Shown piece by piece: positions 137 through 13,320 of a DNA stretch of 64,000 bases; positions within the stretch are counted from its first letter, which is position 1, and each line of letters begins with the position of its first letter. The translations under genes were made by a program, and so were the position numbers. The stretch lies in assembly GCA_022797295.1 (NCBI GenBank), contig JAAWKH010000008.1, positions 1 to 64,000 of the forward strand. Reading direction: 5' to 3'. This DNA comes from Peptococcaceae bacterium (GTDB lineage Bacteria > Bacillota > Dehalobacteriia > UBA4068 > UBA4997). Under the pieces are notes generated by a model, which had not been told where the DNA came from, did not search any database, and saw only the letters and a program-made list of their open reading frames with translations.

Positions 137-1168
137 ATGATTAATATTCAAGACGTAAGGCCGGTATATTTATTTTACGGCTCTGAGCGTTTTTTACTGC
201 AAGCTGCTTTGCAGGAGCTGATTGCGGCGGTGGCGCCGGGGGATAACCCGTTTAATCTGACGCGCCTGAATGGGGAAAGCGCCAGCATGGCCGAGATTTT
301 GACCCACGCCAACACCCTGCCTTTTTTCACTGAGCGCAAGCTGGTGATTGTGGATAATTGTCCGCAGGGTTGGTTTGCTAACCGAAAAAAAGCGGTGGAG
401 AGCGACGCGGAAGCGGCGGAAACAGCGGCCGAACCGGATTTGGCTTCTTTGTTGGCCTATTTGCAAAACCCGGCAGAAAGCACAGTGTTGGTTTTTTTGG
501 CTGGCGAGAGCATTAACAAGGCCAAAAAGTTGAGCAAGGCGGCGGCCAAATGCGGCGTGGTGCAGGAGTTTGCCCAGCTTAAAGGCAACAATGCTATGCT
601 GTGGTTGGATAATTTGCTGAGCCAAAAGGGCTGCGCTATGGAGCCGGCTGCCAAACAACAGCTGTTGCTTTACTGTGATTATGATTGCACGCTGATTAAT
701 AACGAGTTGGAAAAGCTGAGCGTTTACACTGCCGGGCAGCCGAAAATCAGCCGGGCGGATGTTGACGCGGTGGTGAGCAGCAACGCCACAGCCAGCATTT
801 TTAATTTGATAGATTATGTGGCAACTGGGAATTTAAGCCAATCCCTGCGGGCTTTGGAACAGGTGACGCTTAGCGAGGCGCCGGAGAGTGTGCTGCCTCG
901 TTTGGCCGACCACTTTCAAACGCTTTACATAGTGAGAGAAATGCAGCAACAAGGCTACACGGTTAAGGAGATTATGTCGGCCAGTGGCAAGGGCCACCCT
1001 TTTGTGATTGAAAAGGCGGGCCGCCAGGCGGTTAAATATACTGAGCGTAAGCTGCAAAAGGCTTTGGAAACGTTGCTGATGGCGGACCGTAAGTTTAAAA
1101 GCGGTGTTAGCGATATTATGGATGCTATTGAAACGGCTATTATTCAGATTTGTTTGCTGAGCCGCTGA
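137..1168 (+). CDS. holA: DNA polymerase III delta subunit
   Basis: HolA is the clamp-loader subunit that opens the beta sliding clamp within the cytoplasmic replisome. The protein has the usual family length (343 aa) and opening, PVYLFYGSERFLL, followed by the delta pattern of an AAA+-like fold without a working ATPase site. The central LPFFTERKLVIVDN and the C-terminal helical collar region fit the family. The start chosen is the ATG at 137, because residues encoded upstream fall in the repeat and do not match the family; an AGG lies about 10 nt before it. It appears monocistronic, with DUF1847 39 bp downstream. Confidence 0.9.
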   Translation: MINIQDVRPVYLFYGSERFLLQAALQELIAAVAPGDNPFNLTRLNGESASMAEILTHANTLPFFTERKLVIVDNCPQGWFANRKKAVESDAEAAETAAEPDLASLLAYLQNPAESTVLVFLAGESINKAKKLSKAAAKCGVVQEFAQLKGNNAMLWLDNLLSQKGCAMEPAAKQQLLLYCDYDCTLINNELEKLSVYTAGQPKISRADVDAVVSSNATASIFNLIDYVATGNLSQSLRALEQVTLSEAPESVLPRLADHFQTLYIVREMQQQGYTVKEIMSASGKGHPFVIEKAGRQAVKYTERKLQKALETLLMADRKFKSGVSDIMDAIETAIIQICLLSR

Positions 1169-1206
1169 GCTTAGCTACAATATTTTTTTAATAAGGAGAG
1201 GATTTT

Positions 1207-1875
1207 ATGTATACATGTGCTCATTGTGCCATAAAGGCCTGCTACAACAATACCAAGGACAAAATGCCGCAAAATTGCCCAATGCGCACGCCGGGGCTTT
1301 ATATCGGCGTGCCGGAAACATACCACGAAGAAGAAAATCTGCGCATTTTCCAGGAATCTGCGCAGATTGAACATGATGGCTATTGCCAGTGGAATCGGGT
1401 TTATGAAACCATTGAATTTATCAAACGGATGGATTATAAGCTGGTTGGTATTGCTTTTTGCGTGGGGTTGCAGCGGGAGGCGGCGGCCTTTGATCGTTTG
1501 TTGCGGGAGCACGGCATTAAAACCTGTTCGCTGATTTGCAAAAACGGTGGTTTTGATAAAAACGAGTTTGGCATTTCCGATGACAACAAGCTGAAAGGCT
1601 GCGGATATGAGGCGGCTTGTAATCCGGTTGGCCAGGCTAAATTGCTGGCGGCTGCCGGCACGGATTTTAATGTAGTTATTGGTCTGTGCGTAGGACACGA
1701 CACGCTGTTTTTCAAATATACCGAAACACCTTTCACCGTGCTGGTGGTGAAAGACCGCGTTTTGGGGCATAATCCTTGTGTGGCATTGTATGGCGCAGAG
1801 GGCTATTTTAAGGGTGAGGGTTACTTCCGCAAAAAATTTGGCCTGCCGTTGCCAACAGAAAAGACTGATAAATAA
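1207..1875 (+). CDS. DUF1847 family metal-binding protein
   Basis: A 222-aa cytoplasmic protein resembling the DUF1847 family of anaerobes, whose function is unknown. The N-terminus carries a Cys-rich cluster (CAHCAIKAC, then NCP at about residue 24), suggesting metal or Fe-S binding. Further cysteines recur at intervals (FCVG, CSLICK, GCGYEAACNP, LCVGHD). The NPVGQA and GLCVGHDTLF motifs are typical of the family. An AGGAGAG site precedes the ATG. The gene ends 10 bp from the convergent ybaK-like gene. Confidence 0.75.
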   Translation: MYTCAHCAIKACYNNTKDKMPQNCPMRTPGLYIGVPETYHEEENLRIFQESAQIEHDGYCQWNRVYETIEFIKRMDYKLVGIAFCVGLQREAAAFDRLLREHGIKTCSLICKNGGFDKNEFGISDDNKLKGCGYEAACNPVGQAKLLAAAGTDFNVVIGLCVGHDTLFFKYTETPFTVLVVKDRVLGHNPCVALYGAEGYFKGEGYFRKKFGLPLPTEKTDK

Positions 1876-1884
1876 GTTGAGCGG

Positions 1885-2370
1885 CTAAATCGTCAGTTGG
1901 GCGAATTTGGCCTCGCAAATTTTGGCCAGGTCCTGGGGCGCAAGGGTTATTTGTAGCCCCAGTTTGCCTGCACTTACTGTTAAGCTGGTCAAGTCTTGCG
2001 CGCTGGCGTCGATAACAGTTGTAAAGTGTTTTTTCATACCAATAGGTGAGCAACCGCCTTTTACGTAGCCAGTGGTGGCGGTGATTTCCTTGGACGGCAG
2101 CATTGCGATGGATTTTTCTCCCACACTAGCGGCGGCCTTTTTTAAGTCAAGCTCAGCGGCCACAGGGATAACAAAAACATAATTAGTGCGGCTGGCGGCT
2201 ACTGTCACCAGTGTTTTGAAACACTCCTCCGGTTGCTTGCCAACGGCTTTGGCCACGCTGAGCCCGTCCATAAAGCTATCGCTGGGGTAGGCTGTATATT
2301 CATAACTGATGTGTTGCTGGTCAAGCGTGCGCATTGCATTTGTTTTGGCAACTTTTACTGTTTTAGACAT
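1885..2370 (-). CDS. ybaK: Aminoacyl-tRNA deacylase, YbaK/EbsC family
   Basis: Members of this family hydrolyse mischarged Cys-tRNA(Pro) in trans, as ProX/YbaK editing enzymes. The 161-aa protein shows family features: TNAMRTLDQQHISYEY at the N-terminus, VAKAVGKQPEECFKTLV, a conserved Lys in KKAAASVGEKS, and the GYVKGGCSPIGMKK motif. The start is the ATG at 2370 with GAGGTG just upstream; a longer reading frame to 2508 would lack family similarity. It is transcribed divergently from rlmD and convergently with the DUF1847 gene. Confidence 0.88.
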   Translation of the reverse strand: MSKTVKVAKTNAMRTLDQQHISYEYTAYPSDSFMDGLSVAKAVGKQPEECFKTLVTVAASRTNYVFVIPVAAELDLKKAAASVGEKSIAMLPSKEITATTGYVKGGCSPIGMKKHFTTVIDASAQDLTSLTVSAGKLGLQITLAPQDLAKICEAKFAQLTI

Positions 2371-2443
2371 TTTTACACCTCTTGTTGGGATTAAATTAAT
2401 TTGAACAACAACTATTATAATATTTTTTTGGAGATTGTCAATA

Positions 2444-3790
2444 TTGTTATCAAATATAAATGAAAAGAATTTGCCGACGGCGGGTTTGCATCCAGGTGAT
2501 ATTATCATGCTGGAAATTGACGGCTACACTCACGATGGCCAGGGAGTGGGCAGGATGAATGGGGCTGTGGTTTTTGTGCGGGGCGCGTTGCAGGGCGAGC
2601 TGGTGCAGGCGGAAATTAAACGCGAGCGCCGAGGCGTGTTTTATGCGGATTTGCTGGCGGTGTTGCAAGCTAGCGGGCAGCGACAGGAGCCGGACTGCCC
2701 GGTTTACGCTAGCTGCGGCGGTTGTCATTTGCAGCATATGAGCTATGCTGAGGAGCTAAATTTCAAACAGCAGCAGGTGCAGGCGGCTTTGCAGCGTTTA
2801 GCTGGTTTGCAGGTGGAGTGCCGGCCGCCCCTACCGGCGGAGCAGATTTATCATTATCGCAACAAGGGTGTTTTTCACGTCAGCCGGCAGGAGAGTAGGT
2901 TGCAGCTGGGTTTTTGGGATGAGGCTTCGCACCAACCGGCCGGGGCGGCCTGCCAGCTGCTTTTTCCGCTACCCTTAAACGAGCTGGTGGCGCATTTGCA
3001 ACAGACAGGTTTGCCGCTTTGTGTCAGCGATGTTTTGTTGCGTTTCAGTTTTGCTGAAGAAAAAATTATGCTGTTTTTGCGCATCCAGCCTGGCAGCAGC
3101 AAAAAGGCTTTGGCTGAAGCCAGCCTTTGTTTGCAGCAAATTAGTCGGAATTTTGCTAATCTGGCGGTTTGGGGCTTGCAAACTGATACGGGCTGGCAAA
3201 CTTTGTCTGCGGAAAAATATTTAACGGATACTTTGTCTGATGTGCGTTATCAGATTGCGCCTGAGGCTTTTTTTCAAGTGAACAATGTACAAACATTGCG
3301 CCTTTTACAGATGATTGAGCAGGCCTTGCCGCCGGACACGGAGCAACTTTTGGACGCTTACTGTGGCATTGGTACATTGGGCTTGGCTTTGGCTAAACAT
3401 TTGCCTGGTCTGCGGCGTTTGCTTGGCATTGAACTAAACCGGGGCGCGGTTGCTAGCGCCAGGCAAAATGCCAGGTTGAATGATTTGGTGCAAGCGGAGT
3501 TTTGGCTTGGCAAGGCGGAACAGGAATTTGCCAAAGTTTTGCGGCAAGGTTTTGTTCCTGACGCAGTGATTGTGGATCCGCCACGTCGCGGTTGTCATCA
3601 GCAGTTGTTAAATGGGCTTTTGCAGCTTGCGCCACGGCAGCTGATTTATGTTTCGTGTAATCCGGCCACTTTGGCCAGGGATTTGCGCTTGCTTTGCGCG
3701 GAAAAATATGCCGTGCAGCTGGTGCAGCCGGTGGATATGTTTCCTAGAACGCATCACGTGGAAACGGTAGTTTTACTTTCCAAGGGATAA
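2444..3790 (+). CDS. rlmD: 23S rRNA (uracil-C5)-methyltransferase, RlmD/RumA family
   Basis: A SAM-dependent enzyme that methylates a uracil C5 in 23S rRNA; which uridine cannot be told from sequence. It has an N-terminal TRAM domain (GDIIMLEIDGYTHDGQGVGR), a 4Fe-4S cysteine set (CPVYASCGGCHLQH), a SAM-binding motif (DAYCGIGTLGLAL) and a catalytic-Cys loop (VSCNPATLARDL) near DPPRRGC. The start is uncertain: TTG 2444 lies 10 nt after GGAG, TTG 2435 is too close to it, and ATG 2507 would remove part of the TRAM strand. Transcription probably ends at the hairpin near 3866. Confidence 0.88.
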   Translation: MLSNINEKNLPTAGLHPGDIIMLEIDGYTHDGQGVGRMNGAVVFVRGALQGELVQAEIKRERRGVFYADLLAVLQASGQRQEPDCPVYASCGGCHLQHMSYAEELNFKQQQVQAALQRLAGLQVECRPPLPAEQIYHYRNKGVFHVSRQESRLQLGFWDEASHQPAGAACQLLFPLPLNELVAHLQQTGLPLCVSDVLLRFSFAEEKIMLFLRIQPGSSKKALAEASLCLQQISRNFANLAVWGLQTDTGWQTLSAEKYLTDTLSDVRYQIAPEAFFQVNNVQTLRLLQMIEQALPPDTEQLLDAYCGIGTLGLALAKHLPGLRRLLGIELNRGAVASARQNARLNDLVQAEFWLGKAEQEFAKVLRQGFVPDAVIVDPPRRGCHQQLLNGLLQLAPRQLIYVSCNPATLARDLRLLCAEKYAVQLVQPVDMFPRTHHVETVVLLSKG

Positions 3791-3865
3791 ATCAACTCGA
3801 AAAAGTGCGAGTGTAGACATATATTACGGCTAGTGAGAATGTATAATCATAATGGATAATGGCAT

Positions 3866-3910
3866 AACCGTCGTGTATGGTTCAACACTATATGCGACGG
3901 TTTGTTTGTA
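3866..3910 (+). terminator. Rho-independent terminator
   Basis: AACCGTCG (3866-3873) pairs with CGACGGTT (3895-3902), extended inward by several A-T and G-T pairs. The run TTTGTTTGT follows. It would end the rlmD transcript before the LytTR operon. Confidence 0.65.
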
Positions 3911-3949
3911 TTATAATAATGAAATAAGAAATTTTGATGTAAAAAAGGT

Positions 3950-3977
3950 TTGACACTGTCCAGTTACGGTGTTAAAT
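3950..3977 (+). promoter_or_regulatory. Promoter of the LytTR/GHKL operon
   Basis: TTGACA (3950-3955), a 16-bp spacer and TTAAAT (3972-3977). The -35 matches the sigma-A consensus perfectly and the -10 is weak. The LytTR-like repeats start inside the spacer, so regulator binding would either compete with or position RNA polymerase. Confidence 0.55.
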
Positions 3978-3989
3978 CGTCCAGTTGCG
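3958..3989 (+). promoter_or_regulatory. Paired LytTR-type operator
   Basis: GTCCAGTTACG (3958-3968) and GTCCAGTTGCG (3979-3989) are near-identical direct repeats with their GTT cores 21 bp apart, two helical turns. This matches the known layout of AgrA/LytTR sites, which are 9-bp GTT-containing repeats on one DNA face. The repeat is seen directly; binding by the adjacent regulator is inferred. Confidence 0.6.
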
Positions 3990-4047
3990 TTAATCAACTT
4001 TACTACCGCATTTATTTGTACGAATAAATAAATAGAGGAATATCAAA

Positions 4048-4773
4048 ATGATAAAAATAGCGATTTGTGATGACGAGGCCAATATTCGCAATTATCTTGC
4101 GTCATTAATTCGGGCGCAGCCCTGTAACTGTGAAGTTGTGGAGTATGCTTCCGCCATAGACTGTCTGACAGATTGTCGGGAAATTGACCTGCTGTTTTTA
4201 GACATAGAGCTATCCCCTGACCGTCCGGATGGCATGGCTCTGGCGCGAAAGATTAGGGAGAGGACTTCGGGGGCTTTGCCGGTCATTATCTTTGTAACTG
4301 GCTATGAGAAATATGTGTTTGACGCTTTTGATGTAGGTGCGTTCCAATACCTGCTGAAGCCGGTGAGTGAGAAAAGGTTTGCCCAGGTCTTTGAGCGGGC
4401 GGTAAAGCAAATTTTGACCGAACGGGTAAACCCACAAAGGAGCCGGGTGCTGACGCTTCAAGCCGCCAACATTAACAAGACCGTACCTTTAGACGACATT
4501 TTTTACGTTGAAAGCAGCAATCACAAGGTTGTGCTGCATTTGCAGGACGGCGAATTTGCGTACTATGCCAAAATCCGGGATTTGGAGTTGGAACTGCAAG
4601 ACCAGTTTTTTCGTATCCATAAGGGGTATTTGGTCAACCTCTCCTATGTGGCCGGGTATAGCAAAACGGAAGTGATGTTGGTAAATGGAGAAAAGCTTTT
4701 GCTCTCCAAGTATAAGTACAAGGATTTTGTAAAGGCATATCTCCATTTTTTGCAGGCGGGGGCTGGCCTATGA
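4048..4773 (+). CDS. LytTR-family response regulator
   Basis: A 241-aa two-component regulator of the AgrA/LytR class. The N-terminal receiver domain (about 1-125) has the acidic pair D8-D9, the phospho-acceptor D52 in FLDIEL, and a conserved Lys in YLLKPV. The C-terminal LytTR DNA-binding domain (about 140-238) contains DDIFYVESSNHKVVLHL, FFRIHKGYLVNL and the terminal KYKYKDFVKAYLHF. The stop overlaps the kinase start by ATGA, so the two are translationally coupled. Autoregulation through the paired repeats at 3958-3989 is likely. No AgrB- or AgrD-like gene is nearby. Confidence 0.88.
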   Translation: MIKIAICDDEANIRNYLASLIRAQPCNCEVVEYASAIDCLTDCREIDLLFLDIELSPDRPDGMALARKIRERTSGALPVIIFVTGYEKYVFDAFDVGAFQYLLKPVSEKRFAQVFERAVKQILTERVNPQRSRVLTLQAANINKTVPLDDIFYVESSNHKVVLHLQDGEFAYYAKIRDLELELQDQFFRIHKGYLVNLSYVAGYSKTEVMLVNGEKLLLSKYKYKDFVKAYLHFLQAGAGL

Positions 4774-6134
4774 GCGAAGCAGTATTTCAGATTTTTAGCA
4801 ACGCCTTGTTTGGTGGGGCTGAACTAATCTATGCTATGCTGTTTGTTGCCTTTGTCAGGCCATTTTTGCCTGGCCGGGGTAGATGGATAAAGCTGGCAAG
4901 CGTTTTGGCCGTTTACCTCATTTTGAATAGCGTTTGTCCTTATGGCTCGTTCATCCTGATTTTAACACTGGTGATGCTGGCCGTGGCGAAATGCCTTGGT
5001 TTGCCCAAATCGCTTGTTTTTCTGCTGACGCTGCTTTATTTTAACGCCAGAATTTCTGGCGGTCTGTTGGTGCAAAGTCCGTATTTTATTATGGAACAAT
5101 TTTTTCCTCAAAGCAGCGCGATGCCGGAAAGATTTTTGTTTTATTCTTCTCTGCTGACAATGCTGCTTTTGCTGTCACACGTTGTCTTGCTGGCGGTCAT
5201 GCTTTATGCCATTCAGCAACGGCTGCGCAAACAGCGTCTGACGCTTCGGCGGCGCGAGCTGTGTTATATCAGTTTGATACCAACGGCGGGAATTTTGTTC
5301 GGTCAGCTGATTGCCCGGTTGTTATTCGAGGTCAAGGACGGAGTTCTGCTTCAGCTTTACGAACGACATCCAGCATTTTTGGCGGTAGTGCCGGCTCTGG
5401 CTCTGCTGTTTTATGCCGGGACTTATTTAACCATTGTATTTCAGCAGGGTATGGCGGCGCTGCAAGAGGAACAGTCCAGCCGTTATGTCGAACAGCAGCA
5501 GACGCAGGCAATTCGGGCGCGTATTCATGAGGCAGAACAGTTTTATGCCCACATTCGCGAGCTGAAACATGAAATGCGTGGGCATATGACCAACATTAAG
5601 AGTCTGGCGCGAAATGGTGAATACGACAGTTTGGTGGACTATATCGTTAAAATGGATGAGAACAAAAGCGACTTTGAACTGACGCTGCAAACGGGCAACC
5701 CGGTTACAGATGTGATTGTCAACGATATACGGCGGCGGAGCCTTGACTTGGGTATTCGTTTCCAGCTGGATTTTCATTATCCGGAGCTTGGAGCCTATGA
5801 CACCTTTGACATGGGAATTATCCTGCAAAATCTTTTGCAAAATGCCGTAGAGGCCTGCGAGAAAGTTAATGAGGGTGCGCGTTTTATTGAACTGAGCAGC
5901 AAAAGAAAGGGACGTTTCTTTCTGATAGAGGTCAAAAACTCTTTTTCGGGCGAGGTGGTATTCGGGCCGGACGGTTTGCCGGTTACCAGCAAAAAAGAGG
6001 ACGTTTTTCTGCATGGTATTGGGCTTGCCAATGTGCGCCGAGAAGCCGAAAAATATATGGGAGAATTGGAATTGAATATCCAACCACAGGAATTTGTAGT
6101 AACAGTTTTATTACAGGAAAGGAGTGTATTATGA
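4770..6134 (+). CDS. GHKL sensor histidine kinase, AgrC-like
   Basis: A 454-aa membrane kinase pairing with the preceding regulator. The first ~230 residues form about six hydrophobic segments, followed by a Glu/Gln-rich coiled coil (about 235-260). The phospho-acceptor is probably His267 in ELKHEMRGHM. The C-terminal GHKL ATPase has an N box (ILQNLLQNAVEAC) and a glycine box (GIGLANVRREAEKYMG). This layout is that of peptide-sensing kinases, but the ligand is unknown. Start ATG 4770 overlaps the regulator stop, and its own stop overlaps the next start, also by ATGA. Confidence 0.85.
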   Translation: MSEAVFQIFSNALFGGAELIYAMLFVAFVRPFLPGRGRWIKLASVLAVYLILNSVCPYGSFILILTLVMLAVAKCLGLPKSLVFLLTLLYFNARISGGLLVQSPYFIMEQFFPQSSAMPERFLFYSSLLTMLLLLSHVVLLAVMLYAIQQRLRKQRLTLRRRELCYISLIPTAGILFGQLIARLLFEVKDGVLLQLYERHPAFLAVVPALALLFYAGTYLTIVFQQGMAALQEEQSSRYVEQQQTQAIRARIHEAEQFYAHIRELKHEMRGHMTNIKSLARNGEYDSLVDYIVKMDENKSDFELTLQTGNPVTDVIVNDIRRRSLDLGIRFQLDFHYPELGAYDTFDMGIILQNLLQNAVEACEKVNEGARFIELSSKRKGRFFLIEVKNSFSGEVVFGPDGLPVTSKKEDVFLHGIGLANVRREAEKYMGELELNIQPQEFVVTVLLQERSVL

Positions 6135-6943
6135 ATACAGTTAAAGATTTACTATCTGGGCATTTCAAAAATTCTTATGGCGTGGAGGGCATGGATATTA
6201 CAGGGCGGAGCGATTGGAAGCGGATTGTTCCGGTTTCGGATGAAATGAAAAATCACGTTTTGGCCGATGTTAAAAAAGCCTTTTATAAATATGGCGGTAT
6301 GTCCGGTGGCAATAAGTCCGAAGAAGATGCTTATTATGATAAAATCCATAACTACATTAAGTCGGTTAATCAGCAGGAGCGTTCTGCAGTTGGTTGGACG
6401 CTGAGTCAACTGCATTTGGATCTGACAAATGCAGTGAACAGCGCGGTCAAGGAAAAAATGCCCAGCTGGACGCCTGGCCAGAGTATTCCCTCTGAGGTGC
6501 TGGATGAGATTTTTGCCAGCGAACGGATTACATCAATTATGTCGGGCCAATCTGGCGCCGCAGAAAATGCTGCTCTGCGCACGGACAGAGTAGAAATTTC
6601 TGAGGAAGGACGTTTGGCTGCCCAGCAGACACAAAATGAAAATGATGAAGAGGTATCGGAAAAACAGGGCGGCAATGTTGCTGTTAATGTGGGCAAGCGT
6701 GCCCGGCAAATTGCGGCGGCAGCCTCCAAGGAGCAGGTTCAGCAGGTGTTGGCTTTGTTGCAAAATGATATGTCGGAGTGTAAGGCTGGCTTGGAGCAGG
6801 GTATGTGCGATGAAGCGGAAATTGCCAAAGTAGAGGCACTGCTGAATCAGGCCAACTCTCGCTTGAGCCAGGTTCCTAATGCAGCAGATTTGGAAAATCC
6901 GCAGGATGCTTTGAATGCGTTTGCGATGGCGTCGCTGATGTAA
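6131..6943 (+). CDS. Uncharacterised protein of the LytTR/GHKL operon (1)
   Basis: A 270-aa protein with no signal peptide or membrane segment. Residues ~1-130 look like a folded domain with GMDITGRSDWKRIVPVSD and a Trp/His-containing GWTLSQLHLDL; this weakly recalls a domain of unknown function in gut Firmicutes (possibly DUF3879), an unverified memory. Residues ~150-190 are acidic, polar and probably disordered. The C-terminal ~80 residues are helical, with two Cys (ECKAGLEQGMC). The ATG overlaps the kinase stop (ATGA) after a good AGGAAAGGAG site, so it is co-translated with the signalling pair. It could be an output protein or an accessory of signalling; function unknown. Confidence 0.7.
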   Translation: MNTVKDLLSGHFKNSYGVEGMDITGRSDWKRIVPVSDEMKNHVLADVKKAFYKYGGMSGGNKSEEDAYYDKIHNYIKSVNQQERSAVGWTLSQLHLDLTNAVNSAVKEKMPSWTPGQSIPSEVLDEIFASERITSIMSGQSGAAENAALRTDRVEISEEGRLAAQQTQNENDEEVSEKQGGNVAVNVGKRARQIAAAASKEQVQQVLALLQNDMSECKAGLEQGMCDEAEIAKVEALLNQANSRLSQVPNAADLENPQDALNAFAMASLM

Positions 6944-6959
6944 AAAGGAAGGTTAAAAA

Positions 6960-7712
6960 ATGGCTAATATTATTCAACCAATATTTGGCACGCAAACATA
7001 TAATGTTACTTCAAAGGCCAGTGAAACCAAACAGACTGGAACACGGGTCAATAGTTTTCTTGATATGGCGCTGTTGGCTACCGAACGTGGTAAAACGGAG
7101 AGTTTAGAAGCAACGGCGGCTCCTTCCTTGGAAACTATGCTTAAAGCCAAATATCCCAATATTCACTATCATGTCTTCGATGCCAGCAGCGGTTATTGGA
7201 GTACGCGGAATGACTATCCCCATTATCTGTTGTATCAAGATGGTGACAAAGCAAAGGAAACGCTGGAAAATTGGCAGCCCACAGGAGCCAACCCGTTCTA
7301 TGGTTCTATTGACGGCAGGTTTACAGCTCCTAAGGAGATTCACGCCCTGAGTAGCGTTCCACCTGGCAGCAAAGCCGTAGTTATTCATCCAAAGGTGCAG
7401 GAGCGTATGGAGCAAGACCCGGCCTATGCCCAGGAAATATTTGCAAAGATTGACGCGTGGTTTGCCATTGATGTGGCTCGGAACGAGGCTATTATGCCCG
7501 GAAGTACACTTGGTATGTCACAGGCTGTTGCTATTGGGGAGGACGGGAATATCTGTAATGCCTGTTCCTCCAGTGCAGGTGGTGATATTACTTACTCCAA
7601 GAGCGGCTCGTATAGTCAAGAAAGTTGGTGGGATTTGCGTATGGCTCGCCATGCAGAGTTTATGAGGTTGGCACTGGAGAAACAAATCCAATCGGCGAGA
7701 ATAAAACAATAA
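6960..7712 (+). CDS. Uncharacterised protein of the LytTR/GHKL operon (2)
   Basis: A 250-aa protein without a signal peptide or membrane helix. A Thr/Ser-rich N-terminal ~45 residues precede a compact region rich in aromatics (YHVFDASSGYWSTRNDYPHY). The second half contains KAVVIHPKVQERMEQDPAYAQ, AWFAIDVARNEA, a Cys pair in ICNACSSSAGG and a Trp-rich ESWWDLRMARHAEF. These blocks look like a conserved family, possibly near the poorly known DUF6033 group, but I cannot confirm it. It begins 17 bp after the previous gene with an AAGGAAGG site. The operon ends at the 7793 terminator. Confidence 0.68.
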   Translation: MANIIQPIFGTQTYNVTSKASETKQTGTRVNSFLDMALLATERGKTESLEATAAPSLETMLKAKYPNIHYHVFDASSGYWSTRNDYPHYLLYQDGDKAKETLENWQPTGANPFYGSIDGRFTAPKEIHALSSVPPGSKAVVIHPKVQERMEQDPAYAQEIFAKIDAWFAIDVARNEAIMPGSTLGMSQAVAIGEDGNICNACSSSAGGDITYSKSGSYSQESWWDLRMARHAEFMRLALEKQIQSARIKQ

Positions 7713-7792
7713 ATGTTATTTTAAAAGTGTTTTGAGCCATTCTCCCAAAAACGTACAAAAAAGCAGATGAAAAAACGGAATAAAAATAAAGC

Positions 7793-7834
7793 AAGGTAGA
7801 TACAGGGTGGTTTTACCTGTCTCTACCTTTATTT
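7793..7834 (+). terminator. Rho-independent terminator of the LytTR operon
   Basis: AAGGTAGATACAGG (7793-7806) pairs with CCTGTCTCTACCTT (7816-7829) across a GTGGTTTTA loop with one mismatch. The run TTTATTTT follows. It closes the four-gene signalling operon. Confidence 0.8.
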
Positions 7835-7940
7835 TACCATTACACTGCAACGGGGGATATTTATTTATACTTTGGGGGCGAAGTTAGGGCAATAGATATG
7901 TGCAGATATGCCTTTGCGGTGTTGAAGATTTTGTTTAGGG

Positions 7941-7950
7941 AAGTGTTCAC
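7941..7950 (-). repeat. Partial copy of terminator-associated repeat
   Basis: GTGAACACTT on the minus strand, three bases after the T-run of the preceding terminator. The same decamer opens the two 37-bp repeats at 21710 and 32727. The terminator loop here also contains AGCGATTG, another block of those repeats. Confidence 0.5.
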
Positions 7951-7952
7951 AT

Positions 7953-7986
7953 AAAAAGGGAACTCATCGCAATCGCTATGAGTTCC
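7953..7986 (-). terminator. Rho-independent terminator of the HD-domain gene
   Basis: Read on the minus strand, GGAACTCAT and ATGAGTTCC form a perfect 9-bp stem (7978-7986 with 7959-7967), followed by CTTTTTAT. It lies just beyond the stop of the 8001-8573 gene. Confidence 0.8.
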
Positions 7987-8000
7987 TAATATTATTAAAC

Positions 8001-8573
8001 CTAAAGATTGCCTTTCAGACCAACGGCTTCAGCACGTTCCTGTAAACCGGCGATAGTTTCTCGGATAACCTCATCCAGCTCCAGGCCTAGCAGCTCGCAG
8101 CCTTTGCGGATAACATCGCGGTTAACGCCGGCGGCAAAAGCTTTATCCTTAAACTTCTTTTTTACGGATTTCACTTCCAAATCCAGCACGCTTTTAGAGG
8201 GGCGCATTAGGCAGGTGGCGTTAATCAGTCCGCAAAGCTCATCCACGGTGTAAAGGGTTTTTTCCAGCTTGCTTTGTGGCTCAACATCAGTGCAAAGGCC
8301 CCAGCCGTGGCAGTTCATTGCCCGTATGTAAAGCTCGTCCAGGCCGCGCTCGCGCATAATTTCCTCTGATTTTTGGCAGTGTTGCTCCGGGAATTTTTCA
8401 TAGTCCAGGTCATGCAGCAGGCCGGCTACGCCCCAAATCTCCTCGTCCTCACCGTTTAAGCGGCCAAAATGGGCCATCACAGCTTCCACGGCCAAAGCGT
8501 GGTGCTGTAAGGCTTCGGTTTGGGTGTATTCAGTCAGCAGATTCCAGGCGTCGCTGCGGGATAATTTGTTCAT
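8001..8573 (-). CDS. HD-domain phosphohydrolase-like protein
   Basis: A 190-aa soluble protein with an HD metal-dependent hydrolase domain. Visible metal ligands are His in QHHALAV, the HD doublet in GLLHDLDYEKF and a His in AMNCHGWG, with a later Asp in TVDELCGLI. Related small HD proteins are often called HDIG-type hydrolases; the substrate is unknown. The C-terminal helices (VIRKGCELLGLELDEVI) match the same family. The ATG has AGGAGG upstream, and a minus-strand terminator follows the stop. It is monocistronic. Confidence 0.82.
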   Translation of the reverse strand: MNKLSRSDAWNLLTEYTQTEALQHHALAVEAVMAHFGRLNGEDEEIWGVAGLLHDLDYEKFPEQHCQKSEEIMRERGLDELYIRAMNCHGWGLCTDVEPQSKLEKTLYTVDELCGLINATCLMRPSKSVLDLEVKSVKKKFKDKAFAAGVNRDVIRKGCELLGLELDEVIRETIAGLQERAEAVGLKGNL

Positions 8574-8649
8574 TTGTTAATCCTCCTGTGTAAATTAATT
8601 TGTTCATATTATATAATAATGAGCGATAATAAGCAACTGAAAAATCCGA

Positions 8650-8678
8650 TTGATTTTGTATTTAGTTTAAGTTATAAT
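8650..8678 (+). promoter_or_regulatory. Sigma-A promoter of the aldehyde dehydrogenase gene
   Basis: TTGATT (8650-8655), 17-bp spacer, TATAAT (8673-8678). The start codon lies about 48 bp downstream of the -10, with a CAGGGAG site between. Confidence 0.75.
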
Positions 8679-8725
8679 ATTATTAAGTTATAATAAACAA
8701 CAAATGAACACAGGGAGATGTTGCT

Positions 8726-10150
8726 ATGAATAAAGCGGAAATTGCAGAGGCGTTGCAGGCGCAAAAGGAATATTTTGCAGCTGGCTACACTACGAATTAT
8801 ATGAAAGGCAAAGCGTTTCGGAGCACTATGCTGGCCGATTTGCGGGACGCTTTGCAAAAATATGAGCCGCAACTGTTGCAGGCTTTGCAGCAGGATTTGG
8901 ATAAAGCGGAATATGAGGCTTATACCACGGAAATTATTCCGATACAACAGGAAATGGAATATGTTTTCAAAAAAGGCGGTTCCTGGCTTAAAGAAAAAAG
9001 CGTGCTGCCTAACAAACTGACGGCTCACGGCACGGCTAAGGTGCAATACCTGCCCAAAGGTTGTGTGTTGATTATGGCGCCTTGGAACTATCCGCTTCTG
9101 TTGACGATTATGCCGCTGATTTCGGCTATTTTAGCTGGTAATTGCTGCGTGATTAAACCATCGGAGAGTGCGCCAGCCACAGCGGCTGTGCTGGAGGAGA
9201 TGATTAGCAACACTTTTAAGCCGGAATATATTCGGGTGATTAATGGTGACGCCGAAACTGCTCGTGCTTTAACAGAGGCCCCCTTTGATCATATCTTTTT
9301 TACCGGCAGCCAGCAGGTGGGGCGGCAGGTTATGGCGGCCGCGGCCAAAAATATGGCCTCGGTGACGCTGGAGTTGGGCGGTAAATCGCCGTGCATTGTT
9401 ACGTCTTCGGCTAATATTTTCAAATCGGCTAAAAGTATTATCTGGGCCAAGCTGTTGAACTGTGGCCAAACTTGTGTGGCTCCTGATTATGTGTTGGTTA
9501 GTGAGGAGCAAAAGGATCCGTTTATATCCTCTCTGGTGTTTGCTATTAAGGAAATGTATGGTCAGGAGCCGTTACAATCGCCGGATTATGGGCGGATTGT
9601 TAATCGGCAGCATTTTGACCGTCTGTTGGCTTATATTGAGCCTTATCGTAACAAAGGCGGTTTGGTTTATGGCGGTCAGAGCGACGCTAGTCAGCTAAAA
9701 CTGGCTCCTACGATTTTAAGCGGCGTTAACCTTGACGACCCAGTTATGCAGGAGGAAATTTTTGGGCCTATTTTGCCCGTGCTCACGTATGATAAAATCA
9801 GCAATGCCATTCGCTTTATTAACAGCCGGCCTGAGCCGTTGGCTTGCTATATGTTTGATAATACAGATGAACTTACCAGACAGGTTTGCAGTAAGGTGCG
9901 CTGTGGCGGCATTTGCATTAATGATACTCTTACCCAAATGCTGCATCCTGGGCTGCCCTTTGGCGGTTTGGGAGCCAGCGGTTTTGGTCGCTATCACGGC
10001 GAGGCTGGTTTTGCAGAATTTTCTGTGCCGCAAGCTGTTTTCAAAAACCGAATGGGCGCAAATGCGTTGCGCTACGCGCCTTATACGGAAAGCAAGCTGC
10101 AAAAGCTTAAACAAACCTTTAAGCTGGGTATATTTGGTAAAAAATTTTAG
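8726..10150 (+). CDS. Aldehyde dehydrogenase, class 3-like
   Basis: An NAD(P)-dependent aldehyde dehydrogenase of 474 aa, similar in length and motifs to class 3/fatty-aldehyde enzymes. The nucleotide-binding region is APWNYPL...IKPSE; FTGSQQVGRQVM precedes the catalytic Glu in LELGGKSP, and the nucleophile Cys lies in NCGQTCVAPDY. The conserved EEIFGPILPV and LPFGGLGASGFGRYHG motifs complete the fold. Substrate is not predictable. It has its own promoter at 8650 and no terminator before the next gene's promoter. Confidence 0.9.
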   Translation: MNKAEIAEALQAQKEYFAAGYTTNYMKGKAFRSTMLADLRDALQKYEPQLLQALQQDLDKAEYEAYTTEIIPIQQEMEYVFKKGGSWLKEKSVLPNKLTAHGTAKVQYLPKGCVLIMAPWNYPLLLTIMPLISAILAGNCCVIKPSESAPATAAVLEEMISNTFKPEYIRVINGDAETARALTEAPFDHIFFTGSQQVGRQVMAAAAKNMASVTLELGGKSPCIVTSSANIFKSAKSIIWAKLLNCGQTCVAPDYVLVSEEQKDPFISSLVFAIKEMYGQEPLQSPDYGRIVNRQHFDRLLAYIEPYRNKGGLVYGGQSDASQLKLAPTILSGVNLDDPVMQEEIFGPILPVLTYDKISNAIRFINSRPEPLACYMFDNTDELTRQVCSKVRCGGICINDTLTQMLHPGLPFGGLGASGFGRYHGEAGFAEFSVPQAVFKNRMGANALRYAPYTESKLQKLKQTFKLGIFGKKF

Positions 10151-10168
10151 TTAAAAAGCTAGCGCCGC

Positions 10169-10198
10169 TTCAATATTTTGTCTGATTTAACATATAAT
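10169..10198 (+). promoter_or_regulatory. Candidate promoter of the CmpB-like gene
   Basis: TTCAAT (10169-10174), 18-bp spacer, TATAAT (10193-10198). It places transcription start near 10205, which argues against a TTG start at 10178. Confidence 0.45.
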
Positions 10199-10228
10199 AA
10201 ACCCAAAAACAAAGGGGTAATGGTTTTT

Positions 10229-10666
10229 ATGATGCACAAGGGGCGGCGTTGGAATTGGCAGATGTCGGACAATCTGGCTTTGGCGGCAGCGCCTGGTTTT
10301 GGTCAGGCCTTGCTGCTGCTGGCAGGTGCGCTGGGCTATGGATTGTTGGAAATTAGCTGGCGTGGTTGGACGCATTGGTCAATGCTGTTGGCTGGCGGCT
10401 TGTGCTTTTGCTGCATTAATTATCTGGATGTGCAACTGCCTGGCTGCGGCAATGGGCACAAGGCCTGGCTATGCTGTTTGGTGATAACCGCGCTGGAGCT
10501 TTGCTTTGGCTTGGTGTTTAACTGCTGGCTGGGCCTGGATATTTGGGATTACACCAGGCTGCCGGGCAACTTTTTGGGGCAAGTTTGTCTGCCATATGCC
10601 GCTTTGTGGTATTTGCTTTCACTGCTGCTTTTGCGGCTGGCTCGATGGCTGAGGCCGGCTTTGTGA
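10229..10666 (+). CDS. CmpB-like membrane protein (putative ABC transporter type IV family)
   Basis: A hydrophobic protein of about 145 aa with four predicted membrane helices. The motif YGLLEISWRGWTHWSMLLAGGLCF, with its EisWRG-hWSM core, and the later LELCFGLVFNCWLGLDIWDY and LPGNFLGQVCLPYAALW are hallmarks of the family named putative ABC-transporter type IV (CmpB-like), whose real function is unknown. The start is unsettled: ATG 10220 is only 2 nt past GGGG, so ATG 10229 is preferred. Neighbours give no functional clue. Confidence 0.7.
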   Translation: MMHKGRRWNWQMSDNLALAAAPGFGQALLLLAGALGYGLLEISWRGWTHWSMLLAGGLCFCCINYLDVQLPGCGNGHKAWLCCLVITALELCFGLVFNCWLGLDIWDYTRLPGNFLGQVCLPYAALWYLLSLLLLRLARWLRPAL

Positions 10667-10691
10667 AATAGATGAATGGAGTGGGTTGATT

Positions 10692-10958
10692 ATGAATATT
10701 CGTCCGGCTACATCAATTTGTCATAACTACAATGAAATTGCCGATATGTGCCGCAAAACGGCGGAGCCAATTTTTCTCACCCAAAATGGAGAGGGCGATT
10801 TGGTGGTTATGGATATTGAAACCTATAACAGACGTGAAAAAATGCTGAAGCTGAGGGAAGAACTGCTGGCTGTTGAGGAGGAAAAGCTGGCCGGTAGAGG
10901 CGGTTGCTCGCTGGATGAGCTGGATGCTTATCTTGATGAGGCGCTTTCAGAGGTTTAG
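10692..10958 (+). CDS. Phd/YefM-family antitoxin
   Basis: An 88-aa antitoxin-type protein. The N-terminal Phd/YefM DNA-binding fold is visible as RPATSICHNYNEIADMC, followed by EPIFLTQNGEGDLVVMDIETYN, the family core. The acidic helical C-terminus (LDELDAYLDEALSEV) is the usual toxin-binding part. It lies three bases before a RelE/ParE-like gene that is truncated, so it may be an orphaned antitoxin that could still repress its own promoter or neutralise a related toxin elsewhere. Confidence 0.85.
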   Translation: MNIRPATSICHNYNEIADMCRKTAEPIFLTQNGEGDLVVMDIETYNRREKMLKLREELLAVEEEKLAGRGGCSLDELDAYLDEALSEV

Positions 10959-10961
10959 TTT

Positions 10962-11207
10962 ATGGCTGAGATTAAGCATTATCAGGTGATTGTATCGAAC
11001 AAGGCTAAGAGGATGTTGGTTGCTCATATTCGTTTTTTGGCGCAGGTTAGTCCTAAGGCTGCGGCCGCAAAAAAGCAGGAGATAATGGCTGCTTTGGTAA
11101 AAAATATTTTCACGTATCAAGTAAAAAAGCTTGACACCGTTCGTTTTTTATTATATAATAAACGAGTTCGGTGTGAAGCTTTTCACTTTTTAAAGAGGTC
11201 TGTTTAA
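10962..11207 (+). pseudogene. Truncated RelE/ParE-family toxin
   Basis: The first ~46 residues (YQVIVSNKAKRMLVAHIRFLAQVSPKAAA) match the N-terminal helices of RelE/ParE-type toxins. After AALVKN the reading frame runs into unrelated sequence containing the ylxM promoter, and the toxin core strands that normally carry catalytic or gyrase-binding residues are absent. The frame stays open to 11207 by chance and its stop overlaps the ylxM start. The simplest reading is a deletion that fused the 5' half of a toxin gene to the ylxM upstream region; expressed, it would be inactive. Confidence 0.7.
11131..11159 (+). promoter_or_regulatory. Sigma-A promoter of the ylxM-ffh operon
   Basis: Perfect consensus TTGACA (11131-11136), 17-bp spacer, TATAAT (11154-11159). 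It sits inside the 3' part of the truncated toxin frame, 48 bp before the ylxM start. Confidence 0.88.
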
Positions 11208-11579: not shown

Positions 11580-12998
11580 GTGGCAGTGTTTAGCAGCCTG
11601 GCTGATAAATTACAGGAAACTTTTAAGAAGCTGACCGGCAAGGGCAAGCTGACCGAGGCGGATATTAATGAAGCGATGCGCACGGTGCGGATGGCCCTGC
11701 TGGAAGCTGACGTAAGCTACAAGGTGGTTAAGGATTTTGTAGCCACCGTTAAGGAGCGGGCCCTGGGCGCGGATATTTTAGGCAGCCTGACCCCTGGCCA
11801 ACAGGTTATCAAAATTGTGCAGGAGGAGCTCACCGCGTTGATGGGCTCGGAGCAGGTTAGGGTTAATATGCAGAACAAGCCGCCCACGATTGTGATGATG
11901 GCTGGTTTGCAGGGCAGTGGTAAAACCACTTCCGCCGCTAAAATTGCCCTTTTGTTCAAAAAGCAGCACAAGCGGCCGCTGCTGGTGGCCGGCGATATTT
12001 ATCGGCCGGCGGCTATCAAGCAGTTGCAGGTGTTGGGCGAGCAAACGGAAATACCGGTTTTTGCATTGGGCGACAAGGTTAGCCCTGTGGAGATTGCCCG
12101 GCAGGGCGTGGAGCATGCCAAGGCCAACAATAACGATTTGGTGCTGATTGATACAGCCGGCCGTTTGCATATTGACGAAGCCCTGATGCAGGAGCTGAAA
12201 GACATCAAGGCCACGGTGCAGCCGCACGAGATTTTGCTGGTGGTTGACGCTATGGCCGGCCAGGACGCTGTGAAAGTGGCGGAAACCTTTAATGCGGAGT
12301 TGGAAATTGACGGTCTGGTTTTGACCAAAATGGACGGCGATACGCGCGGCGGCGCGGCGCTTTCGGCCAAAGCGGTGACTGGCAAGCCGATTAAATTTGT
12401 CGGTATGGGTGAAAAGCTGGACGCAATGGAGCCTTTCTATCCAGACCGGATGGCCTCGCGCATTTTGGGTATGGGCGATGTTTTGACCTTGATTGAAAAG
12501 GTACAGGCTGAGGTTGATGACCAAAAGGCGCAGGAATTGGAAGAAAAAATGCGCAATGCCAGTTACACTCTGGACGATTTTTTGGATCAGATGGCTCAGT
12601 TGCGCAAGATGGGCGGCATGAAAGATATGCTGGCTTTGATTCCGGGCATTGGCAAGCAGCTGAAGGATTTGGAAATTGACGAGCGGGAAATCGGCAAGGT
12701 GGAGGCCATTGTGCTTTCTATGACGTCGGCGGAGCGGCAAAATCCATCAATCATCAATGCCTCGCGCAAGCAGCGGATAGCAAAGGGCAGCGGCGTGCAG
12801 GTGCAGCAGGTGAACCGGCTGTTGAAGCAGTTTGAGGACACCAAAAAGATGATGAAAAAGCTGACTGAAAACGGCATGTTGAAGCAGGAGCGTGTGCATA
12901 AGCCTCGCAACAAAAAGGGTAAAGGCAAAAAGGGCGGCGGTGGTAAGCAAAACCGCAACAGTATGGCGGGGATGTTCTCCAAGCTGATGGGCCGCTGA
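11580..12998 (+). CDS. ffh: Signal recognition particle protein Ffh
   Basis: Ffh is the SRP GTPase that binds signal sequences and 4.5S RNA and delivers ribosomes to FtsY at the membrane. The 472-aa protein has the N domain, G domain with GLQGSGKTT (P-loop), DIYRPAA, DTAGRLH and TKMDGDTRGGAAL, and a methionine-rich M domain (GGMKDMLALIPG, MTSAERQNPSIINASRKQRIAKGSG). The C-terminus is a Lys/Gly-rich stretch. The GTG start follows AAAGGAGG. The partner ftsY is at 29.8 kb in the same window. Confidence 0.97.
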   Translation: MAVFSSLADKLQETFKKLTGKGKLTEADINEAMRTVRMALLEADVSYKVVKDFVATVKERALGADILGSLTPGQQVIKIVQEELTALMGSEQVRVNMQNKPPTIVMMAGLQGSGKTTSAAKIALLFKKQHKRPLLVAGDIYRPAAIKQLQVLGEQTEIPVFALGDKVSPVEIARQGVEHAKANNNDLVLIDTAGRLHIDEALMQELKDIKATVQPHEILLVVDAMAGQDAVKVAETFNAELEIDGLVLTKMDGDTRGGAALSAKAVTGKPIKFVGMGEKLDAMEPFYPDRMASRILGMGDVLTLIEKVQAEVDDQKAQELEEKMRNASYTLDDFLDQMAQLRKMGGMKDMLALIPGIGKQLKDLEIDEREIGKVEAIVLSMTSAERQNPSIINASRKQRIAKGSGVQVQQVNRLLKQFEDTKKMMKKLTENGMLKQERVHKPRNKKGKGKKGGGGKQNRNSMAGMFSKLMGR

Positions 12999-13062
12999 TT
13001 GATTAAGTTTATTAGTTTAATAATTATATAAATAGATTAGCTGATATTGGAGGTGAAAGATT

Positions 13063-13320
13063 ATGGCAACAAAAATTCGTCTGCGCCGTATGGGCGCCAA
13101 AAAAGCGCCGTTCTATCGTGTGGTGGTGGCTGATTCCCGCAGCCCGCGTGATGGTCGTTTTATTGAGGAAATTGGCTACTACAATCCGATTTCGGAGCCT
13201 GCTGAAATTAAAATTAATGAGGAAAAGGTTCTGAAATGGCTGCAAACTGGCGCTGAGCCCTCAGAAACAGTTAAGCAGCTGTTGAAAACAACTGGTATCT
13301 GGGCCAAACGCAGCAAATAG
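13063..13320 (+). CDS. rpsP: 30S ribosomal protein S16
   Basis: An 85-aa S16 with the family signature [19 protein letters not shown] and [23 protein letters not shown]16 binds 16S rRNA early in 30S assembly. The start ATG follows TGGAGGTGA. It is the third gene of the ffh-trmD operon, with the KH gene 22 bp on. Confidence 0.97.

Follow-up and report, generated by a model that had tools for sequence, protein, structure and literature searches.

A 64,000-nucleotide stretch of a Peptococcaceae bacterium (contig JAAWKH010000008.1; "the window" refers to this whole stretch) encodes, at positions 4048 to 7712, a LytTR response regulator and a GHKL sensor kinase followed by two proteins, ORF3 and ORF4. 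The locus raises the question of what these two proteins do beside such a sensor pair. Comparison across genomes provides good support for a first answer: the operon is a conserved LytTR/GHKL module that very likely regulates itself, has uncharacterised outputs and has spread horizontally among mostly flagellated gut Clostridia. The best explanation for the whole, an autoregulated module with flagellum-linked outputs, is put forward tentatively, with a little less than an even chance of being right. The features of the locus are as follows.

3866-3902, + strand: terminator-like hairpin closing the transcript of an upstream RlmD-type methyltransferase.
3959-3989, + strand: LytTR-type operator, the direct repeat TCCAGTTACG-N11-TCCAGTTGCG with a 21-bp period, conserved at about -89.
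3998-4039, + strand: conserved promoter-proximal region with CTTTAC (3998-4003), CGAATA (4021-4026) and the ribosome binding site AGAGGA (4034-4039).
4048-4773, + strand: LytTR response regulator, 241 amino acids (aa), with receiver and LytTR DNA-binding domains (Pfam PF00072, E = 6e-15; PF04397, E = 6e-20).
4770-6134, + strand: GHKL sensor kinase, 454 aa, with HATPase_c_5 (Pfam PF14501, E = 2e-21) and 6-7 hydrophobic N-terminal segments.
6131-6943, + strand: ORF3, 270 aa, with DUF3879 at residues ~15-128, a disordered linker containing DRVEISEEG and, by alignment, a conserved C-terminal helical hairpin at residues ~187-245.
6960-7712, + strand: ORF4, 250 aa, with a disordered tail (residues 1-52) and an alpha/beta core (~55-200); a probable remote DUF6033 relative.
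7056-7058, + strand: codon of the invariant Phe33 of ORF4, in the motif SFLDMA.
~7783-7835, + strand: downstream hairpin, likely a terminator (z = -3.7).

The ORF coordinates confirm the four-gene order described in the initial annotation, including two ATGA overlaps, and the gap before the fourth gene, which measures 16 bp rather than the 17 bp given there. Hairpins flank the operon on both sides, as had been claimed. The identities assigned to the regulator and the kinase also hold, as all of their domains exceed the Pfam gathering cut-offs. ORF3 and ORF4 had been described as lacking both membrane helices and any assignable domain. The first part stands, since neither has a single hydrophobic segment in the hydropathy check (the kinase has 6-7), but the second fails for ORF3, which clearly exceeds the cut-off of DUF3879 (PF12995; 47.6 bits versus 27, E = 2e-12).

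Scanning species genomes with ORF4 yielded 66 loci, chiefly from gut Oscillospiraceae and Lachnospiraceae. A gene-neighbourhood search had been proposed as a check for recurrent linkage to LytTR/GHKL pairs, and such linkage was found: 41 of the 49 ORF4-homologue loci whose upstream sequence is long enough carry the kinase gene ahead of the homologue, in the same orientation. Eight ORF4 homologues are orphans. The plan of the operon is constant: regulator and kinase come first, followed by one to three outputs drawn from a DUF6033-like/DUF3879-like pool; the last of these is an ORF4 homologue of ~335 aa in most loci, and the middle genes of sister operons encode DUF6033 above the cut-off. In 30 of 32 related loci the regulator and kinase genes share 4 nt, as do the kinase and the next gene in 33 of 40. 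Because these overlaps are conserved, the ATGA coupling in the window is not due to chance. The genes flanking the operon differ from locus to locus.

LytTR regulators act through direct repeats that lie immediately 5' of the promoter. Of 39 loci, 38 have the near-identical repeat TCCAGTYRCG-N11-TCCAGTYRCG ahead of the regulator gene, mostly beginning 89 bp from the start codon; the sole locus lacking it is L058, from a Clostridium species. Real copies score 17-20 of 20 (27 are perfect), and the threshold for a real site was at least 17, the best of 780 shuffled control sequences having reached 16. In the 20 genomes scanned, strong copies all sit at an operon, with no second strong site, and hence no external regulon, found elsewhere, and the remaining matches with two mismatches occur at the level of a reversed-pattern control. 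Given this confinement of strong copies, we infer a dedicated, self-controlling operon: very likely it is controlled by its own regulator, predicted to bind the operator. Activation, rather than repression, would be the direction expected from the parallel with Agr, where the AgrA sites are two direct repeats ahead of agr P2 and P3 (PMC4227749).

The kinase linkage (41/49), the conserved operator (38/39) and the restriction of strong sites to operons make it very likely that ORF3 and ORF4 are outputs of the LytTR/GHKL pair. They had originally been proposed as partners or outputs of the signalling path; the output part of that proposal is borne out, yet both families also occur outside the operon. 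The module of regulator, kinase and one to three outputs, together with its autoregulation, can be regarded as very likely. In the mechanism we propose, the GHKL kinase would sense a signal and phosphorylate the LytTR regulator, which would then bind the repeat at 3959-3989 and raise expression of its own operon, with proteins 3 and 4 as the outputs of the activated operon.

The pair resembles AgrC/AgrA of Staphylococcus and Clostridium in that a multi-pass GHKL kinase lies next to a LytTR regulator with a direct-repeat operator (PMC4227749), but differs in that AgrB and AgrD are missing and one to three large soluble proteins of DUF6033/DUF3879 type follow the kinase. The absence of AgrB and of a peptide gene, stated in the initial annotation, is upheld. 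No AgrB is encoded within the operon or by the genes on either side of it, and the sister operons consist of regulator, kinase and outputs alone. The flanking gaps contain no convincing short ORF for an AgrD-like propeptide, although a very short one is not fully excluded. An Agr system proper was rejected on these absences, although the module works in the manner of an Agr-type switch. A pheromone-like system could nevertheless work without AgrB and AgrD if an output protein, or a fragment of it, were exported as the kinase ligand, giving density-dependent positive feedback. Such a system would suit an AgrC/AgrA-like pair that appears to control its own operon and is followed by one to three outputs with no separate signal gene found, but no processing site or protease was found either, and the most conserved part of ORF4 in the alignment of homologues is its folded core and not a short peptide. 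We consider this improbable. Among other candidates, anti-phage defence was rejected for lack of a meaningful PADLOC match, and no phage, plasmid or viral carriage was found.

The protein families themselves offer some guidance. ORF3, modelled by AlphaFold2 with a predicted local distance difference test score (pLDDT) of 78, matches DUF3879 over residues 15-128, but the short DUF3879 proteins (145-165 aa) lack the C-terminal helical hairpin, which in our alignment is common to other operon-borne proteins. ORF4 by itself reaches no Pfam family and falls below the DUF6033 cut-off (PF19498; 14.8 bits versus 25), as do nearly all of its close homologues. In a profile-profile comparison, however, the profile of ORF4 homologues aligns with DUF6033 members through the core (probability 90%, E = 1.9e-6), which points to a remote relationship with this family, many of whose genes stand alone. 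The window ORF4 is shortened: its homologues have a variable insert and ~60 further residues at the C-terminus, and no frameshifted remnant of the missing C-terminus was found at this locus. Neither protein has a significant match to a solved structure in the PDB, nor does ORF4 match viral models significantly; weak phmmer matches in the PDB to designed Kelch-like proteins and a protelomerase were judged to be chance. HHpred and structure prediction had been suggested at the outset as a check; no recognisable solved fold emerged for either protein.

Outside the operon, DUF6033 occurs in 131 of the 396 genomes sampled from a single family of gut Clostridia (that of G034), and in the Lachnospiraceae-type genomes covered, genes of its core subfamily mostly stand alone. 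In two flagellated genomes (G135 and G231), a stand-alone DUF6033 gene lies beside a lepA-like gene (L070 and L071), a conserved position unrelated to the operon. The genome of the window itself encodes a short DUF3879-like protein (145 aa; L003, 1420-1857 of G000:C1) whose gene lies ahead of a pseudouridine-synthase-like gene, with no LytTR/GHKL pair nearby.

A lead on the role of the outputs is the kind of genome that carries the operon. FlhA is encoded in 35 of 36 operon genomes, including that of the window, which also has FlhB and flagellins and whose FlhA groups in the tree among those of the Oscillospiraceae carriers. The background is 46 of 247 genomes (~19%) in the order and 53 of 220 (~24%) in the family, and in the family sample five of six ORF4-positive genomes carry FlhA. 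Fisher tests give p = 3e-21 and 0.003, though both values ignore shared ancestry. The one operon genome without FlhA (G002) is a metagenome-assembled genome (MAG) named Marvinbryantia, and we suspect binning contamination in this case.

The kinase and FlhA trees conflict, with 46% identity for FlhA against 98% for the kinase between G001 and G003, and 53% against 83% between G015 and G010. The presence of the operon across deep lineages therefore cannot be due to inheritance alone. The trees indicate that the operon moved horizontally between lineages and that the recipients are flagellated, although for G001/G003, where the flanks agree too, MAG contamination is another possible explanation. 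The loci L005 and L007, with FlhA at 46% and the kinase at 98%, have the same flanking genes, consistent with either a large transferred island or MAG contamination.

Flagellar genes adjoin the module at L058 (Clostridium sp. NALB_7811_6, 231-11140), where flagellin, LytTR regulator, GHKL kinase, output-type genes and FliS (E = 3e-14) form one strand-wise run. The flagellin gene is immediately upstream of the regulator and FliS ends the run of output genes, which includes a protein judged FliD-like by eye only. One might argue that the link to flagella is only a side effect, with the operon circulating among related, incidentally motile Oscillospiraceae of the mouse gut and serving a function unrelated to flagella (e.g., surface or competition proteins that are exported in some other way). 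Most loci are indeed from gut MAGs and Oscillospiraceae, and one genome (G068) is a counter-example to the association. However, flagellated species make up only ~24% of the same family, the horizontal crossing of deep lineages has flagellated recipients, and flagellin and FliS flank the operon in L058. This makes a mere by-product rather unlikely.

Several observations weigh against a flagellar role. L058 is the only operon locus with a flagellar structural neighbour, and stand-alone DUF6033 genes rarely adjoin flagellar genes. Two genomes (G267 and G223) have DUF6033-like matches without flagellin or FlhB. The -10-like CGAATA of the window resembles CGATA-type flagellar promoters, but CGATAT occurs in the same region in G068, where FlhA, FlhB and flagellin were not found, and no sigma-28 promoter could be demonstrated. 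At that locus (L137, G068:C11, 2940-13628), a divergent regulator-kinase pair is followed by ~12 output-type proteins, most of which share a tail layout, beginning hydrophobic and having Phe at ~29-33; the family is thus not restricted to flagellated genomes. On balance, a functional link of some kind to the flagellum in these hosts seems slightly favoured. The module would move horizontally between flagellated gut Clostridia and be kept mainly in them, with a flagellum-linked function as the most likely role of its outputs.

How such a link might work is suggested by the tail of ORF4. AlphaFold2 predicts residues 1-52 to be disordered and the alpha/beta core to be ordered, and in the alignment Phe33 is invariant in all 34 rows and Ile5 nearly so. 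Of the non-redundant proteins encoded after the kinase, 33% have Phe at position 33, compared with at most ~6% at any position for unrelated neighbours. The gate motif of exported flagellar subunits reportedly reads F-x-x-x-hydrophobic (Evans et al. 2013), a degenerate pattern that also occurs at positions 28-37 in 19% of unrelated proteins. Early subunits start with a hydrophobic extreme N-terminus, followed after ~26-30 residues by a gate recognition motif that lies no fewer than 30 residues into the chain (PMC8983047). The conserved Ile5 and Phe33 in the disordered tail of ORF4 recall this layout, a resemblance that is suggestive at most. The rod and hook substrates FlgD, FlgE and FliK similarly have a disordered N-terminus, a hydrophobic start and a Phe motif ~30 residues in, but no homology of the ORFs to flagellar structural proteins was found and the G068 relatives lack a flagellum. 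ORF3 is without a Phe33-type tail, a further point against export. By analogy with these substrates, export of ORF3 and ORF4 through the flagellum is conceivable but more doubtful than a flagellar link as such. Protein 4, if not both, would then probably pass the flagellar type III export gate without a chaperone, led in by its N-terminal tail with the hydrophobic N-terminus and the Phe33 motif.

The same tail could serve inside the cell. Proteins 3 and 4 might stay cytoplasmic, docked by the motif on a common partner (the kinase, the regulator, a chaperone or a chemotaxis/flagellar switch component) and tuning the sensor or motility. The lack of a signal peptide or membrane segment in both proteins would be expected in that case, as would the many tail-motif proteins of G068 in the absence of a flagellar export gate, the stand-alone DUF6033 genes far from flagellar loci and the missing tail motif of ORF3. 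What speaks for export is that several paralogues differ in their C-terminal parts yet have the tail at the same position, as is typical of delivery signals, and that the association with flagellar genomes is strong within the clade. We regard the cytoplasmic alternative as a serious minority possibility, a little behind export itself. The most specific form of the export reading is speculative: a mobile AgrA/AgrC-like switch in gut Clostridia would control non-structural proteins that leave by the flagellum, one of which might itself act back on the kinase, and the whole would be a secretion or signalling module carried by the flagellum.

If the outputs do leave via the flagellum, they would represent a regulated secretion route, currently unrecognised, in abundant gut commensals. 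The operon in any case supplies proteins of DUF6033/DUF3879 type with a regulator and an exact operator sequence, and with a location that can be tested. In a literature search we found no paper naming DUF3879 or DUF6033, and among the titles and abstracts covered none described a LytTR/GHKL/flagellar operon of this kind.

Two minor observations concern related proteins elsewhere. DUF3879 proteins of ~153 aa are encoded at L082, L083 and L086 in flagellated genomes, and at L082 and L086 the gene before the short one encodes 245 aa, including a Phe near position 33. At L137 of G068, a 251-aa protein (12316-13071) holds the peptide GNVSIIGGADGPTSIFIAGK, which at residues 38-60 matches OAD_beta, the beta subunit of Na+-transporting decarboxylases (E = 4e-4).

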